A stretch of 49,926 bases of DNA, from assembly GCA_025458805.1 (NCBI GenBank), contig JALORQ010000001.1, positions 1 through 49,926 of the forward strand, read 5' to 3'. This stretch comes from Rubrivivax sp. (GTDB taxonomy: Bacteria > Pseudomonadota > Gammaproteobacteria > Burkholderiales > Burkholderiaceae_C). Under the pieces are notes generated by a model. The model was not told the DNA's origin. It made no database searches and was given only the letters and a program-made list of their open reading frames with translations. This document shows positions 26,279 to 33,225 of this stretch, piece by piece (within the stretch, counting starts at the first letter, position 1; every line of letters begins with the position of its first letter). The translations under genes were made by a program, and so were the position numbers.

Positions 26279-27544
26279 TCAGGCGCGCGAAGCGCCGGCG
26301 GCCTCGAGTCCATCGGCCAGACGGGCGCCGAGCCGCGGCACCTGGTGGTCGAGCATCGCGGTCAGGAATGCCGTCTCGACCTGCACGACGATGCGCTCCC
26401 AGTCGAGGTCGAGCGCGCTGAGCCTGGCCTGCGGGCCGAGCCTCGCCGGCAGCTCGGCCTCGGCGCCGAGCTCGCGCGCCGCGCGCACGAAGGCCCCGGC
26501 GTCGCCGGCCGGTACCTTGCGGCCGTTGCGACCGTCGACGACGAGCTCGGACGCCGCGGCATGGTCGAACGCCAGCACCGGCAGGCCGCTGGCCATCGCT
26601 TCGGGCACGACGTTGCCGTAGGTCTCGGTGAGGCTGGGGAAGACGAAGAGGTCACCCGACGCGTAGTGCGCGGCCAGATCCTCGCCGCGGCGCAGGCCGG
26701 CGCAGAGGGCTTCGGGGCAGTGCTGCTGCAGTTCGCGGCGCAGCGGGCCGTCGCCGACCAGCACCAGCCGCCACCGCGCACCGCCGGCGCGCAGCGCGTC
26801 GAAGGCGCGCAGCAGCAGGTCGAGGTTCTTTTCCGGAGCCAGCCGCCCGACGTAGAGCGCGGCCCGGTCGCCGGCGCGCAGGCCCCAGCTCGCCCGCAGG
26901 GCCTCGCTGCGGTGCTGCGGACCGAATCGGCGCGTATCGACACCGCGCGCCACGACGAGCAGGCGCTCGAAGCCGCTGGCGGCGAGCTCGGCGCGCAGCG
27001 CCTCGGTCGGCACCATCGTGAACCGCGTCGCGTTGTGGAAGCGCCGCAGGTAGGCAACGATGGGCTTGCGCAGCCAGCCGATGCCGTAGTGCCGGCTGTA
27101 GGCGTGGAAGTTGGTGCGGAAGTCCGAGGTCACCGGCAGGCGCAGACGTCGCGCCGCCCGCACCGCCGACCAGCCCAGCGGGCCTTCGGTCGCGACGTGG
27201 ACGACGTCGGGCCGCGCGAGCGACCACCGCCTCGCGAGCGCGGCGGCGGCCGGCAGACCCATGCGTAGGTTCGGATACTGCGGGATCGGCAGACCGCGCA
27301 TCAGCAGCTCGCCCAGGCGCGGCGCGTCGCCCGGCGCATCGCCGCGGTGCTGGCGCGGTCGCACCAGCTGCAGGTCGTGCCCGCGCGCATGCAGTCCCTC
27401 GACGACGCGTGCGATGGTCGTCGCGACCCCGTTGACTTCGGGCGGCCAGGTCTCGGTGACGACCGCGATGCGCAGCGAATGGCGGTTCGCCGGCCACTCG
27501 TCGACGAGGAACGGAGCCGGCTCGGCGAGGTTCATGACGCGCAT
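26279..27544 (-). CDS. GT4-family glycosyltransferase (Agt/mannosyltransferase-like)
   Basis: LRIAVVTETWPPEVNGVATTIARVVEGLHARGHDLQLVRP...VVPTEALRAEL..LYVGRLAPEKNLDLLLRAF..FPSLTETYGNVVPEAMASGLPVLAF. Confidence 0.9.
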   Translation of the reverse strand: MRVMNLAEPAPFLVDEWPANRHSLRIAVVTETWPPEVNGVATTIARVVEGLHARGHDLQLVRPRQHRGDAPGDAPRLGELLMRGLPIPQYPNLRMGLPAAAALARRWSLARPDVVHVATEGPLGWSAVRAARRLRLPVTSDFRTNFHAYSRHYGIGWLRKPIVAYLRRFHNATRFTMVPTEALRAELAASGFERLLVVARGVDTRRFGPQHRSEALRASWGLRAGDRAALYVGRLAPEKNLDLLLRAFDALRAGGARWRLVLVGDGPLRRELQQHCPEALCAGLRRGEDLAAHYASGDLFVFPSLTETYGNVVPEAMASGLPVLAFDHAAASELVVDGRNGRKVPAGDAGAFVRAARELGAEAELPARLGPQARLSALDLDWERIVVQVETAFLTAMLDHQVPRLGARLADGLEAAGASRA

Positions 27545-27558
27545 CGTGCCCGGGCATC

Positions 27559-27576
27559 AAGACCGGTCGATGACGG
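27559..27576 (-). promoter_or_regulatory. Candidate Pho box upstream of the GT4 gene
   Basis: Minus strand: CCGTCAT-CGAC-CGGTCTT, 15-32 bp before the annotated start. Confidence 0.35.
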
Positions 27577-27611
27577 ACGCACCTTCCGACCGGGCCGCGT
27601 CGGCCGACGAA

Positions 27612-27640
27612 CCGACACGAGTCGGTCACGCCGCGTTCAC
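27612..27640 (+). promoter_or_regulatory. Candidate Pho box (three 7-mers, 11-bp period)
   Basis: CCGACAC-GAGT-CGGTCAC-GCCG-CGTTCAC compared with CTGTCAY. Upstream of the 27738 gene. Confidence 0.45.
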
Positions 27641-27737
27641 GCGCGCCGCCGAGCATCCTTCCCGCGCCGGCCCCCGGTCAGCGCAAGCCTGCCCGCGGGC
27701 ACCGCCCGCGACCATGCCCCGCCCCAGGAGGACCGCC

Positions 27738-28346
27738 TTGAACTCCTTCCTCGAAGCCCTTCGCGTGCAGCGCTGGGACGACCACCGCTACTACCACCAC
27801 AGCCGCATCAACCAGTCCTTGCACCTGGTCAGCGCGCTGTGCTTCGTCGTCGCATACGGCCTGCTCCTCGTCGACCCGGCGCTTGCAGCGTGGCTGGCCT
27901 GGGGCGTGTCGATGACGACCCGGCAGGCCGGCCACTTCTTCTTCGAGCCGCGCGGATACGACCACGTCAACCAGGCCACGCACGAGCACAAGGAGGAGAT
28001 CAAGGTCGGCTACAACCTCCGGCGCAAGATGGTGCTGATGGCGCTGTGGGCCGCGGCGCCGGTGGCGCTGGTGCTGTCGCCTTCGCTCGGCGGCCTGATC
28101 GAGCCGGCGTCGACGGTCGAGGGCACGCTGCGCGACATCGGCATGGCGTGGCTCGCGCTCGGCGTGGCCGGCCTGCTGTTCCGCACGCTGCAGCTCGCGG
28201 CCACGCAAGGCGCGATGACCGGTCTGGTGTGGGCCACCAAGATCGTCACCGACCCGTTCCACGACATCTGGCTCTATCACAGGGCGCCGCTCGCGCTGCT
28301 GCGCGGCGAGCTGATCGACCCGATGGGGCATGCGCAGCGCCACTGA
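27738..28346 (+). CDS. His-rich polytopic membrane protein, weakly DUF962/Mpo1-like
   Basis: AGGAGG at 27727-27732 precedes TTG at 27738 (ATG 27714 is an alternative). Sequence YYHHSRINQSLHLVSALCFV...GHFFFEP..HVNQATHEHKEE...FHDIWLYH. Confidence 0.6.
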   Translation: MNSFLEALRVQRWDDHRYYHHSRINQSLHLVSALCFVVAYGLLLVDPALAAWLAWGVSMTTRQAGHFFFEPRGYDHVNQATHEHKEEIKVGYNLRRKMVLMALWAAAPVALVLSPSLGGLIEPASTVEGTLRDIGMAWLALGVAGLLFRTLQLAATQGAMTGLVWATKIVTDPFHDIWLYHRAPLALLRGELIDPMGHAQRH

Positions 28347-28434
28347 GCGGGCACCGTGCGCCGAGCGGGCCCTTGCACCTCGAGCCGTGGGCCCCGCCGC
28401 GTCGCGGCGTCGCGCCGCCGGGCGCGCGCGAACG

Positions 28435-30093
28435 TCAGAACTTGTGCGCCAGCACCTCGCGCAGGATGCCGCGGCGGATCGTCCTGTTGCTGGCCGACGG
28501 TGCGCTCCAGAACCAGCCGTCGGCCCGCATCTCGCGGCACGCGGCGACGAAGCGCTCGGCGACGGCGGCAAAGTCGGCCTCGCCGTACGCGAGGCTGAAG
28601 ATCATGCGCCCGCTGCCCACCCAAGACAGCGCCAGCCCGTGGCGGCGCAGGTAGAACTGCAGCATCCAGTGGTAGCGCGAGGGACGCCTGTACAGCACCG
28701 TCCACACGGTCTGCAGGTGGGCCACCTGCACCGGCAGGTTCTCCTCCGCGAGCCAGTGGTTGAGCGCCCGCGCGCGCTCGTTCCAGCGCTCGTCGAGACG
28801 CTCGTACAGCGCCTGCACCTCGGGGCGCTCGAGGCGGTCGAGGAAGGCGCTCATCGCGCCCATCACGTAGGGGTGCGAGTTGAAGGTGCCGCGCGCGAAG
28901 CAGATGTCGGCCGGACGCTCCTCGCGGTAGCGCTTCATCAGGTCGCGGCGGCCGCAGACCACGCCGACGGGCAGCCCGCCGCCCAGCGTCTTGCCGTAGG
29001 TGACGAGGTCGGCCTGCACGCCGAAGTACTGCTGCGCGCCGCCCGGGGCGAGGCGGAAGCCCAGGAACACCTCGTCCATGATCAGCACGATGCCGCGCTC
29101 GGTGCACACCTCGCGCAGCCGCTTGAGCCAGTCGGTGTAGGCGGCGCGGTCGAAGCGGGCGCTGCGGCTGCCGTCGACGAGCGACGAGTCGCCCGGCGCC
29201 GGCCGGTTGGGGTGCAGCGCCTGCAGCGGATTGACCAGCACGCAGGCGATGTCGCGGCGCGTGCGCAGCACCTTCAGCGTGCGCTCGTCCATCTCGCGCA
29301 GCGTGTAGGTCTGCCGCGGCATCACCGGATTGCCGGGGCCGGGCTGCACGTCCTCCCACCAGCCGTGGTAGGCGCCGCAGAAGCGCACGAGGTGCGTGCG
29401 GCGCGTGTGGTAGCGCGCCAGCCGCACGGCCTGCATCACGGCCTCGGTGCCCGACATGTGGAACGACACCTCGTCGAGGCCGGAGATGCGCCGCAGGCGC
29501 TCGATGTTCCCCAGCATCACCGGGTGGTAGCTGCCGAGCACTGGACCGAGTTCGCGCACGAGCGCGCTGCCCTCGTCGATGCAGGCCTTGTAGGTGTCGA
29601 CGCCGAGCAGGTTGACGCCGTACGAGCCGGTCAGGTCGTAGAAGCGGTTGCCGTCCAGGTCGGTCAACGTGACGCCCGTGGAGGCCTGCACGAAGCTGCC
29701 GACCTTCAGGTGCCGGCGCAGGAACTCGCCGTACTGGAACGGCACGCGGTAGGCGCCGGTGAACTGCAGGTCGGACAGCCCCTGAGCGGCCTCGGCGGTG
29801 GCGGCCAGCGATCGCGGGAAGCGCTCGCGGAAGGTCGCGGCGAGCGACTCGAGGCCGCGCCGGCGCAGCTCGACGACGTCGGCCGGGGCGCCGTCGGAGG
29901 CGAAGAAGCGCTGCTCGTCGTAGGCATACCCCGGCAGCCAGGCGGCCACGCGCCTGGCCATGCGCGCGTGGCCGGCCAGCGAGCGGTGCTTGGCGCGCGA
30001 CAGCTCGAGCCGGCGCCACGCCGCGGGTGCGCCGGCGGCAACGGCCGCCGCGGCGGCGAACGCGATCGCGCCGAGGGCAAGGGTGTCGTTCAT
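28435..30093 (-). CDS. Class III aminotransferase (GSA-aminomutase-like), N-terminally membrane-anchored
   Basis: N-terminal hydrophobic segment (TLALGAIAFAAAAAVAAGAPAAW). PLP enzyme motifs GSYHPVMLGN, FHMSGTEAVMQAVRLAR, FCGAYHGWW, IMDEVFLGFR and TYGKTLGGGLPVGVV. Confidence 0.85.
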   Translation of the reverse strand: MNDTLALGAIAFAAAAAVAAGAPAAWRRLELSRAKHRSLAGHARMARRVAAWLPGYAYDEQRFFASDGAPADVVELRRRGLESLAATFRERFPRSLAATAEAAQGLSDLQFTGAYRVPFQYGEFLRRHLKVGSFVQASTGVTLTDLDGNRFYDLTGSYGVNLLGVDTYKACIDEGSALVRELGPVLGSYHPVMLGNIERLRRISGLDEVSFHMSGTEAVMQAVRLARYHTRRTHLVRFCGAYHGWWEDVQPGPGNPVMPRQTYTLREMDERTLKVLRTRRDIACVLVNPLQALHPNRPAPGDSSLVDGSRSARFDRAAYTDWLKRLREVCTERGIVLIMDEVFLGFRLAPGGAQQYFGVQADLVTYGKTLGGGLPVGVVCGRRDLMKRYREERPADICFARGTFNSHPYVMGAMSAFLDRLERPEVQALYERLDERWNERARALNHWLAEENLPVQVAHLQTVWTVLYRRPSRYHWMLQFYLRRHGLALSWVGSGRMIFSLAYGEADFAAVAERFVAACREMRADGWFWSAPSASNRTIRRGILREVLAHKF

Positions 30094-31063
30094 GGACGAT
30101 CCGGATCCGAAGGAGGCCCGATTGGGACCCGCAGGCGTTGACAAGCCGATGAAAGCCCCCGCATGGCGCGAACGGCTGCTGCTGCAGGAGGACCTCAACT
30201 TCCTGCTCACCAACCGCGTGCCGCGGCTGCTGCTGACGCGGCTGATGGGCCGCTTCAGCCGCATCCGCAGCCGGCCCCTCGCGCGGGTGTCGATCGCGGT
30301 CTGGCGGCTCTTCACCGACCTCGACTTCTCCGACGCAGAGACCGACCGCTTCGACAGCCTGCACGCGTGCTTCACGCGCGCGCTCAAGCCCGGGGCGCGG
30401 CCGATCGCGGCGGACCCGCAGGTCGTCGCCAGCCCCTGCGACGCGATCGTCGGCGCCTGCGGCGCCGTGCAGGCGGGCAGCGTGCTGCAGGCCAAGGGCT
30501 TCCCGTACCGGCTCGCCGACCTGCTGGGCCGCGAGGCCCGCGCCGCGCCTTTCCACGAGGGCACCTACGTCACGCTGCGTCTCACGTCCAGCATGTACCA
30601 CCGCTTCCACGCGCCGCACGACGGCCGCGCGGTGCAGGTCACCCACTTCAGCGGCGACACCTGGAACGTCAACCCGATCGCGCTCGCGCGCATCGAGCGC
30701 CTGTTCTGCCGCAACGAGCGCGCCGCGATCGAGTACGTGCTCGACCGCGGCGGCCACCGGCTGATGCTGGTGCCGGTCGCGGCGATCCTGGTGGCCAGCC
30801 TGCGCCTGCACTGGCTGCGGCTGCGGCTGCACACCGGCTACCGCGGCCCGGACGAGATCGCCTGCGACCAGCCGTTCGCGAAGGGCCAGGAGATGGGCTG
30901 GTTCGAGCACGGCTCGACGATCATCGTGCTCGCGCCGCCCGGCTTCGCGCTCGCCCCGGGCATCGCGCCGGGGCAGCGCGTGCGCATGGGCGAGGCGCTG
31001 CTGACGCTGCCCCGCGCGGGCGAGGGGTCGTCACGCGACCGTCATTCCCCCGGCGGAGCATGA
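30092..31063 (+). CDS. Phosphatidylserine decarboxylase-family protein (start 30092 or 30149)
   Basis: CFTRALKPGARPIAADPQVVASPCDAIVG, HEGTYVTLRLTSSMYHRFHAPHDG, and WFEHGSTIIVL, which contains the pyruvoyl-forming GST motif. Confidence 0.88.
   Translation: MDDPDPKEARLGPAGVDKPMKAPAWRERLLLQEDLNFLLTNRVPRLLLTRLMGRFSRIRSRPLARVSIAVWRLFTDLDFSDAETDRFDSLHACFTRALKPGARPIAADPQVVASPCDAIVGACGAVQAGSVLQAKGFPYRLADLLGREARAAPFHEGTYVTLRLTSSMYHRFHAPHDGRAVQVTHFSGDTWNVNPIALARIERLFCRNERAAIEYVLDRGGHRLMLVPVAAILVASLRLHWLRLRLHTGYRGPDEIACDQPFAKGQEMGWFEHGSTIIVLAPPGFALAPGIAPGQRVRMGEALLTLPRAGEGSSRDRHSPGGA
30138..30155 (-). promoter_or_regulatory. Candidate Pho box upstream of the aminotransferase
   Basis: Minus strand: CTTTCAT-CGGC-TTGTCAA, 45-62 bp before the ATG at 30093. 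Overlaps the PSD 5' coding region. Confidence 0.35.
31028..31045 (+). promoter_or_regulatory. Candidate Pho box upstream of the GT28 gene
   Basis: TCGTCAC-GCGA-CCGTCAT, 22-40 bp before the ATG at 31068. Lies inside the PSD 3' coding end. Confidence 0.35.
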
Positions 31064-31067
31064 CGCG

Positions 31068-32270
31068 ATGGATTCGAGCTTCGAGGACGCGGCAAGGCCG
31101 CCGGTCGACGGCGCGCTGCCCGCGGTCGACCTGGTCTACTTCAACGCCGGCGGCGGGCATCGCGCCGCGGCCGAGGCGCTGCGGTCGCTGGCGGCGATGC
31201 AGGGCCGTCGCTGGCGCGTGCGCACGCTCAACCTGTTCGACGTGCTCGACCCGGCCGGCCGCTTCGAGCGCATCACCGGCTTCGCGCCCGAGGACTACTA
31301 CAACAAGCGGCTGGCGCGCGGCTGGACGATCGGCCTGGCGCAGGAGCTGAAGATCCTGCAGGCGATGATCCGCGCCGCGCACCCGTGGATGGTCGAGCGG
31401 CTGGCCGCGCACTGGCAGGCGACGCGGCCCGACCTCGTCGTCTCGCTGGTGCCCAACGTCAACCGGGCGCTGCACGACGGGCTCGCGCGCGGGCGTCCGG
31501 GCGCGCCGTTCGCGACCGTGCTGACCGACTTCGCCGACCTGCCGCCGCATTTCTGGATCGAGCGCGGCCAGCGCCAGCACCTGGTGTGCGGCACCGGCCG
31601 GGCGTACGCGCAGGCACTCGCCGCCGGCCATGCACCGCGCCGCGTGCACCGGGTCTCCGGGATGATCCTGCGGCCGAGCTTCTACGCGCCGCCACGCGTC
31701 GGGCGCGACGAGGCGCGCGCGGCGCTGGGCCTCGACCCCGCGCAGCCGGTGGGCGCGGTGCTGTTCGGCGGCCACGGCTCGCGCGTGATGAAGCGCATCG
31801 CCGCGCGGCTGCCCGACGTGCCGCTGGTGCTGCTGTGCGGACACAACGCCGCGCTCGCCGACGAGCTGCGCGCGCTGCCCGCGCGCGCGCCGCGTGTCGT
31901 CGTCGGCCACACGGCCGACGTCGCACACTACCTGCGGCTGGCCGACTTCCTGGTCGGCAAGCCGGGGCCGGGCAGCGTGAGCGAGGCGCTGCACTGCGGC
32001 CTGCCGGTGATCGTGACGCGCAACGCCTTCACGATGCCGCAGGAGCGCTACAACACCGAGTGGGTGCGCGACCAGGGCGTCGGCCTCGTGCTCGAGAGCT
32101 TCGCGGACATCGAGCCGGCCGTCGCACGGATGCTCGCGGCGTTGCCGTCGTTTCGCGAGCGCGTGCAACGCCACCGCAACCGGGCGGTGTTCGAGGTCGC
32201 GGAACTGATCGACCGATGGCTCGCCACGGCCCCGGTGCCCGAAGGCGCGACGCCGGCCGCGGCCGTCTGA
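31068..32270 (+). CDS. MGDG synthase-family (GT28) glycosyltransferase
   Basis: VYFNAGGGHRAAAEALRSLAA, LTDFADLPPHFWIERGQRQHLVCGT and VGKPGPGSVSEALHCGLPVIV match the GT28/MGDG synthase pattern. Confidence 0.85.
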   Translation: MDSSFEDAARPPVDGALPAVDLVYFNAGGGHRAAAEALRSLAAMQGRRWRVRTLNLFDVLDPAGRFERITGFAPEDYYNKRLARGWTIGLAQELKILQAMIRAAHPWMVERLAAHWQATRPDLVVSLVPNVNRALHDGLARGRPGAPFATVLTDFADLPPHFWIERGQRQHLVCGTGRAYAQALAAGHAPRRVHRVSGMILRPSFYAPPRVGRDEARAALGLDPAQPVGAVLFGGHGSRVMKRIAARLPDVPLVLLCGHNAALADELRALPARAPRVVVGHTADVAHYLRLADFLVGKPGPGSVSEALHCGLPVIVTRNAFTMPQERYNTEWVRDQGVGLVLESFADIEPAVARMLAALPSFRERVQRHRNRAVFEVAELIDRWLATAPVPEGATPAAAV

Positions 32271-32290
32271 CCCGCCCCGCCATCACGAAC

Positions 32291-32319
32291 CTGTCGCGGC
32301 ACGGTCACGCCGCCGTCGC
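32291..32319 (+). promoter_or_regulatory. Candidate Pho box upstream of the PlcP-like gene (three 7-mers, 11-bp period)
   Basis: CTGTCGC-GGCA-CGGTCAC-GCCG-CCGTCGC. Shares the exact 11-mer CGGTCACGCCG with the element at 27623. Confidence 0.5.
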
Positions 32320-32343
32320 CGTTGCAGCGCACCATGAAGGTCC

Positions 32344-33225
32344 ATGCAAAGGGACCTGCCCTTCGACGCCTCGGCGCTCGTCGCCGGCCCGGACGACGGC
32401 CCGCCGGCCCGGCAACGGGTGCGCACCGTCTGGATCTCGGACCTGCACCTCGGCACCCCCGGGTGCCAGGCGGGCGCGCTGCTCGACTTCCTGCGCAGCG
32501 TCGATTGCGAGACGCTGTACCTCGTCGGCGACATCATCGACGGCTGGCAGCTGCGGCGCCAGTGGTACTGGCCGCAGGCGCACAACGACGTCGTGCAGAA
32601 GCTGCTGCGCAAGGCGCGCAAGGGCACGCGCGTGGTCTTCGTTCCCGGCAACCACGACGAGTTCGCGCGCCGCTACGTCGACCACAACTTCGGCGGCGTC
32701 GACGTCGTCGAGGACTGCATGCACGTCACCGCCGACGGCCGGCGGTTGTGGGTGACGCATGGCGACCACTTCGACGGCGTGATCCAGTGCGCCAAGTGGC
32801 TGGCCTACGTCGGCGACTCGGCCTACGAGTTCACGCTGCGCGTGAGCCGGCACGTCAACTCCCTGCGTGCGCGGGTCGGGCTGCCGTACTGGAGCCTGTC
32901 GCGCTACCTCAAGCTGAAGGTCAAGCGCGCGGTGAGCTACGTCAGCGACTTCGAGAACGCGGTGGCGCGCGAGGCGCGCGCCCGCGGCGCCGACGGTGTC
33001 GTCTGCGGCCACATCCACCATGCCGAGCTGCGCATGATCGACGGCCTGCTCTACGCCAACGACGGCGACTGGGTCGAGAGCCTGACGGCGCTGGTCGAGC
33101 ACGACGACGGTCGCCTCGAGATCGTCGACTGGTCCGCCGCCGGCCGCGAGGTCGCGCCGCCGTCCCCTGTGGTCCCGGCGGTGCTGCCCGCCCCTGCGCC
33201 CGCACTCCGCGCCGCGGACGGCTGA
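32344..33225 (+). CDS. PlcP/LpxH-like metallophosphoesterase
   Basis: RTVWISDLHLGTPGCQAGALLDFLRS..YLVGDIIDGWQLRRQWYWPQAHNDVVQKLLRKARKGTRVVFVPGNHDEF..THGDHFD..GHIHHAEL. I recall this as closer to PlcP-type phospholipase C proteins than to canonical LpxH. Confidence 0.85.
   Translation: MQRDLPFDASALVAGPDDGPPARQRVRTVWISDLHLGTPGCQAGALLDFLRSVDCETLYLVGDIIDGWQLRRQWYWPQAHNDVVQKLLRKARKGTRVVFVPGNHDEFARRYVDHNFGGVDVVEDCMHVTADGRRLWVTHGDHFDGVIQCAKWLAYVGDSAYEFTLRVSRHVNSLRARVGLPYWSLSRYLKLKVKRAVSYVSDFENAVAREARARGADGVVCGHIHHAELRMIDGLLYANDGDWVESLTALVEHDDGRLEIVDWSAAGREVAPPSPVVPAVLPAPAPALRAADG

Follow-up and report, generated by a model that had tools for sequence, protein, structure and literature searches.

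The recurrent direct repeats that precede most transcription units of a putative lipid gene island in Rubrivivax sp. are, we conclude with high confidence, Pho boxes, which together with a suitably placed -10 hexamer would form PhoB-dependent, sigma70-type promoters for low-phosphate lipid remodelling. The island lies in a stretch of 49,926 nucleotides (hereafter the window; 72.5% GC) from a 3.16-Mb assembly of 274 contigs that is 76% complete. Its reading as a PhoB regulon, put forward in the original prediction, is strongly supported at the level of sequence by matrix scores, a composite promoter ranking, the rarity and conservation of the motif, and the presence of PhoB, PhoR, PhoU and PstS. 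The elements and genes are collected in Table 1.

Table 1. Predicted promoter elements and genes of the island, with positions in the window.
Feature	Positions	Strand	Sequence, geometry or domain evidence
Predicted PhoB box, GT4 gene	27559-27576	-	CCGTCAT-cgac-CGGTCTT
Predicted triple PhoB half-site array, Mpo1-like gene	27612-27640	+	CCGACAC-gagt-CGGTCAC-gccg-CGTTCAC
Predicted PhoB box, class-III aminotransferase gene	30138-30155	-	CTTTCAT-cggc-TTGTCAA
Predicted PhoB box, GT28/MGDG-synthase-like gene	31028-31045	+	TCGTCAC-gcga-CCGTCAT
plcP-side array, four in-register half-sites	32280-32319	+	CCATCAC-N4-CTGTCGC-N4-CGGTCAC-N4-CCGTCGC
plcP-side array, three originally noted half-sites	32291-32319	+	CTGTCGC-ggca-CGGTCAC-gccg-CCGTCGC
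-10 hexamer, GT4 promoter	27543-27548	-	CACGAT, exactly 10 nt after box
-10 hexamer, Mpo1 promoter	27651-27656	+	GAGCAT, 10 nt after array
Candidate -10 hexamer (weak), aminotransferase promoter	30122-30127	-	TCCCAA, 10 nt after box
-10 hexamer, GT28 promoter	31056-31061	+	GAGCAT, 10 nt after box
-10 hexamer, PlcP-like promoter	32330-32335	+	CACCAT, 10 nt after array
GT4-family glycosyltransferase	26279-27544	-	Pfam GT4 domains
Mpo1-like (DUF962-type) membrane protein	27741-28346	+	Weak Pfam Mpo1-like match, below gathering score
Class-III aminotransferase (glutamate-1-semialdehyde aminomutase-like)	28435-30093	-	Pfam PF00202
Phosphatidylserine decarboxylase, psd	30149-31063	+	Pfam PF02666, 189 bits
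MGDG-synthase/diglucosyl-diacylglycerol-synthase-like glycosyltransferase, GT28 type	31068-32270	+	Pfam PF06925
PlcP-like calcineurin-type metallophosphoesterase	32344-33225	+	Pfam PF00149/PF12850

On re-reading the sequence, all five elements of the original prediction were found at exactly the coordinates and on the strands given for them. Each contains at least two CTGTCAY-like 7-nt direct repeats with 4-nt gaps and hence an 11-bp period, in which individual half-sites match only five to six of the seven positions. Two of the elements had been described as triple repeats sharing an 11-mer; the shared 11-mer (CGGTCACGCCG, at 27623 and 32302) and the triple repeat of the Mpo1-like gene both stand, but the plcP-side array comprises four half-sites, with an overlooked CCATCAC in register at 32280-32286. 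The overlap of two boxes with coding sequence was likewise borne out: the 31028 box falls entirely within the 3' end of psd, and the 30138 element covers the start codon of the divergent psd gene (ATG 30149-30151). Boxes do precede most transcription units, as proposed; psd itself has no forward box of its own in this genome, and several congeners do have one.

A further regularity, missed in the original prediction, is the -10 hexamer that lies 10 nt past the last half-site, as it does in the genome's own pstS promoter (TTGTCAC-CGGT-TTGTCAC-N10-TAGAGT). Across the genus, the pstS box is followed by TANNNT at N10 in 22 of 22 promoters, this one included, and the same box to -10 distance is constant through the island, the hexamer of the aminotransferase promoter being weak in this genome. 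Four of the five island hexamers fit NANNAT (P about 2e-9), and xAxxAT occupies the hexamer position behind 9 of 10 GT28 boxes from the window and its congeners. Island promoters mostly show SANSAT at N10 (GT28, PlcP, GT4, and part of Mpo1 and psd) and aminotransferase promoters TANANN, with TACAAR or TAGACC at this position in many congeners. Among 109 near-gene boxes, found with a matrix of which the hexamer rule formed no part, a -10-like hexamer stands at spacer 10 in 45; any other spacer accounts for at most two boxes, save for 11-bp echoes at spacers 21 (nine boxes) and 32 (eight boxes).

The resulting geometry of box, 10 nt, -10 hexamer, 6-8 nt and ATG explains both the overlap of boxes with coding sequence and their closeness to annotated starts. 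An ATG follows the hexamer after only 7 nt in GT4 (27535), 6 nt in GT28 (31068) and 8 nt in the PlcP-like gene (32344), so that leaderless mRNAs are predicted for all three. Since the ATG at 27535 lies closely behind the GT4 hexamer, translation of GT4 probably starts there and not at 27544.

The pstS promoters also provide a yardstick for the boxes themselves. A PhoB-site matrix trained solely on the pstS promoters of 21 congeners, with the genome's own pstS excluded, identifies the island boxes as the pstS motif, strongly for GT28 and the aminotransferase and more weakly for GT4 and Mpo1. Since CCGTCAY is often the second half-site of pstS boxes in this lineage, the island half-sites depart less from the norm than a comparison with E. 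coli suggests. The background for this matrix was 595,756 bp of the same genome outside the window (1.19 million positions), on contigs chosen mainly for their response-regulator genes and thus non-random. Against it the GT28 box, the top box of the window, has a per-position p of 1.7e-6, its score being reached by only two background positions, the pstS and choice-of-anchor-I sites. The aminotransferase box follows (p=4.2e-6; five background positions), then the plcP-side array, each 18-mer of which has a p of about 2e-5 (window ranks 4, 5 and 6), and the Mpo1 array (p=3e-5 on the box alone). A start-codon artefact was considered for the aminotransferase box, in which the CAT of a half-site is the psd ATG, and was rejected: its score is reached at 1 of 1895 anchored starts, and as this control set includes the window, that single position is probably the 30138 site itself.

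GTCA-rich direct repeats might simply be frequent in DNA of such GC content, the best of those near genes having been picked, and the imperfect half-sites would accord with this, as would the GT4 box, which is weak on its own (p=1.5e-4, a score met by 173 of the 1.19 million background positions). Half-site pairs at gap 4, however, occur in 82 of 155 upstream regions of island genes; gaps of 0-3 and of 5-14 are seen in 0-10 regions, and gaps 15 and 17 show echoes. This peak and that at spacer 10 rule out chance for the set, leaving room for it only in single weak half-sites; together with the independent matrix, the shuffled controls, the orthologous conservation and the genome-wide rarity described below, they make coincidence a negligible prospect.

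Rarity is clearest when box and hexamer are scored together. A composite model of box, N10 and hexamer was trained on other genomes only, from a set picked for A at the second hexamer position, and was run over both strands of 645,682 bp of this genome's DNA, window included (about 1.29 million positions). The pstS promoter ranks first (28.9), followed by the choice-of-anchor-I gene (27.0), GT28 (25.5), the PlcP-like gene (21.0), ppk1 (19.5), GT4 (18.9), a pstS-divergent gene named fasciclin-like from its translation (18.4), the aminotransferase (18.0) and the Mpo1-like gene (17.7). All five island elements are thus among the top nine (ranks 3, 4, 6, 8 and 9). The best composite score elsewhere in the window is 12.7, which upholds the remark in the original prediction that its other intergenic regions hold nothing comparable. 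In the entire assembly the exact box-plus-hexamer pattern has seven matches, and the reversed pattern none, so that similar sites are not equally common throughout the genome. Four of the seven belong to pstS, its divergent partner, the choice-of-anchor-I gene and GT28; the other three precede genes which, from their translations only, would encode a phytase-like esterase, a glgC-like protein and a P-type ATPase.

The repeats are also kept in relatives: orthologous genes have them upstream both in congeners and in more distant genera. About 25 genomes of the same genus share the island or substantial portions of it, with its two divergent promoter regions conserved, and some congeners lack it. 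Boxes of at least 10 bits lie upstream of GT4 in 12 of 22 orthologues, Mpo1-like in 16 of 23, aminotransferase in 24 of 29, GT28 in 11 of 24, PlcP-like in 15 of 28 and psd in 9 of 29, this genome included and the congeners not being independent samples, as against 0.2-0.7 expected for each from dinucleotide shuffles. Some of the antisense signal comes from the box of the neighbouring gene, since these promoters form divergent pairs. The GT4 box recurs in congeners as YTGTCATCRRNCTGTTGC at an identical distance from the gene, and the order of the Mpo1 triple is preserved (e.g., GCGACAC-N4-GTGTCAC-N4-CATTCAC in G019). Where plcP or GT28 has been relocated or inverted, the box mostly stays with the gene, and where GT28 directly follows GT4, in Pseudorhodoferax and Variovorax, it has no box; box presence therefore tracks transcription units. 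Promoters of the same build accompany the island in Pseudorhodoferax, Variovorax boronicumulans and Candidatus Accumulibacter. Among nine loci of distant genomes, box and hexamer precede the aminotransferase in six, only its neighbours in one and neither in two; the matrix assumes high GC and its scores are inflated in AT-richer genomes, so that position is the better evidence there.

PhoB, PhoR and PhoU are all encoded in the genome, each passing the cut-off of its model (TIGR02154, TIGR02966 and TIGR02135, respectively), with PstS in the same cluster. The genome also holds ten OmpR-type DNA-binding domains, and several OmpR/PhoB-family regulators bind similar direct repeats, so the boxes could in principle be the 11-bp-phased operators of another member of this family. 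This is very improbable: motif, gap and -10 spacing in the island are those of the pstS promoters, and the remaining best sites lie before ppk1, the phytase-like esterase and the pst-divergent gene. Alternatively, PhoB might bind, but some sites might be transcriptionally inert, chiefly the 31028 site, which lies within psd, and the weak boxes of GT4 and Mpo1, much as most intragenic PhoB sites of E. coli are inert (PMC10294691). Conservation, however, sets the island sites apart from the inert ones of E. coli, which lack it. The island sites also carry a -10 hexamer spaced as in pstS, and the same paper describes a tightly fixed position relative to core promoter elements as a requirement (PMC10294691). 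Inertness is hence unlikely, and PhoB-dependent promoter function remains the preferred reading.

The genes so arranged point to membrane lipids. The MGDG_synth-domain, diglucosyl-DAG-synthase-like glycosyltransferase adjoins the PlcP-like gene in the window and in many congeners; its protein matches NCBIfam PRK13609 below the cut-off, and the GT4 protein likewise does not reach the NCBIfam thresholds for glycolipid synthases (e.g., NF053787). An LpxH identity of the PlcP-like protein is not supported (36 bits, versus the LpxH equivalog cut-off of 190), and no other LpxH was found in the 76% complete assembly. The Mpo1-like gene, with a TTG start preceded by AGGAGG, is kept in congeners. For the aminotransferase, the closest solved structures are mycosubtilin synthase subunit A and GSAM, and the island psd is the second copy in the genome, the other lying at C149.

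In E. coli, phospho-PhoB stands in for the -35 element and brings sigma70 polymerase to the promoter. For the island we infer a comparable chain, from PhoB binding and a response to phosphate to the transcription starts and the resulting lipids. When phosphate is scarce, phospho-PhoB would bind the 11-bp-phased half-sites, replace the missing -35 element and recruit sigma70 polymerase to the -10 hexamer, giving transcription of the GT4, Mpo1-like, aminotransferase, GT28 and PlcP-like genes, several of them as leaderless mRNAs. The PlcP-like phosphoesterase would then free diacylglycerol from phospholipid, and the glycosyltransferases would turn it into phosphorus-free glycolipids. Because almost every gene has its own conserved switch at a fixed distance, the island genes are very probably switched on together at phosphate exhaustion. 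The gene content fits the replacement of phospholipids by phosphorus-free lipids, with a chemistry read from protein families only. The aminotransferase-PSD-Mpo1-GT4 module, kept together with its Pho boxes well beyond the genus, may be an undescribed phosphate-starvation pathway to a new amino- or glyco-lipid, a tentative proposal in which the head group would come from the action of the aminotransferase and the second PS decarboxylase.

The base-level promoter models give a sharp, testable regulon prediction, and would extend Pho-controlled membrane remodelling to the Burkholderiales, including relatives in Variovorax and Accumulibacter. Searches of the literature for Pho-linked clusters combining PSD and aminotransferase genes returned nothing relevant, and the island's gene content is not reported for known PlcP clusters in the literature found. 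Predicted Pho control of a class-III aminotransferase and of a second PS decarboxylase hints at lipid chemistry not yet sought.

Set against known systems, the island promoters resemble PhoB-activated promoters of E. coli in having two or more 7-nt repeats, 4-nt gaps and a -10 at a set distance. They depart from the E. coli consensus CTGTCAT-N4-CTGTCAY of the phoA and pstS promoters (PMC3465305; PMC4415409) in half-sites that drift to CCGTCAY and CGGTCAC, in -10 hexamers of mostly SANSAT instead of TANNNT form, and in the leaderless transcripts predicted for several of them. As in the phosphate-controlled ornithine- and lysine-lipid synthesis of Acinetobacter, where olsB is the gene concerned (PMC11828411), a Pho box lies ahead of a gene for phosphorus-free lipids, box and lipid role both being predicted in the island, although no OlsA/OlsB-type gene is found among its genes. 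The closest parallel is with the PlcP-Agt low-phosphate lipid-remodelling clusters of Phaeobacter MED193, SAR11 and P. aeruginosa (PA3219-PA3218) (PMC4796936; PMC8528852), in which a PlcP phosphoesterase likewise lies beside one or more glycosyltransferases with Pho boxes upstream, the island's PlcP-like protein being named by family. The island is best read as a putative Pho-controlled PlcP/glycosyltransferase remodelling cluster of this known kind with extra parts. Unlike the described clusters, it adds a second PS decarboxylase, a class-III aminotransferase, an Mpo1-like protein and an MGDG-synthase-type glycosyltransferase, provides nearly every gene with a box of its own, and resides in the Burkholderiales.

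The sole LpxH-like match in the organism's own genome (a 76%-complete assembly) is the phosphoesterase of the lipid island, which falls far below the LpxH cut-off; a true lpxH is either absent from this incomplete assembly or has been replaced. Within the island, the annotated GT4 start codon overlaps the predicted -10 hexamer, and the downstream start is, from the sequence, more likely. Paired boxes offset by 24 bp recur upstream of the Mpo1-like gene in congeneric genomes (G004, G014, G019, G025, G031, G036), where the downstream box, mostly lacking a -10 at 10 nt, may have a different role.

Beyond the island, the promoter ranked second in the sampled genome (646 kb) precedes a gene encoding a choice-of-anchor-I/PEP-CTERM protein, a likely secreted member of the Pho regulon. 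Upstream of ppk1 (polyphosphate kinase), a Pho box is followed at N10 by TAAACT, and an ATG comes a few nt after this hexamer. Exact box-plus-hexamer matches also lie upstream of a glgC-like gene, a P-type ATPase and a phytase-like esterase (L246, L247 and L248; own contigs C123, C138 and C202), the first two overlapping long open reading frames in their 5' portion. In two acidobacterial MAGs carrying a GT28 homologue, strong Pho-like promoters are directed away from that homologue, upstream of its divergent neighbour.

Predicted Pho promoters and GT4 starts (L, stretches of DNA outside the window; C, own contigs)
Feature	Position	Strand	Contig
Pho-like promoter, acidobacterial MAG	L037:1700-1733	-	
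Pho-like promoter, acidobacterial MAG	L041:7952-7985	-	
ppk1, Pho box + N10-TAAACT	L215:15016-15049		C228
Choice-of-anchor-I gene, predicted Pho promoter	L205:1595-1628		C57
GT4 start, annotated	27544 (window)		
GT4 start, more likely	27535 (window)
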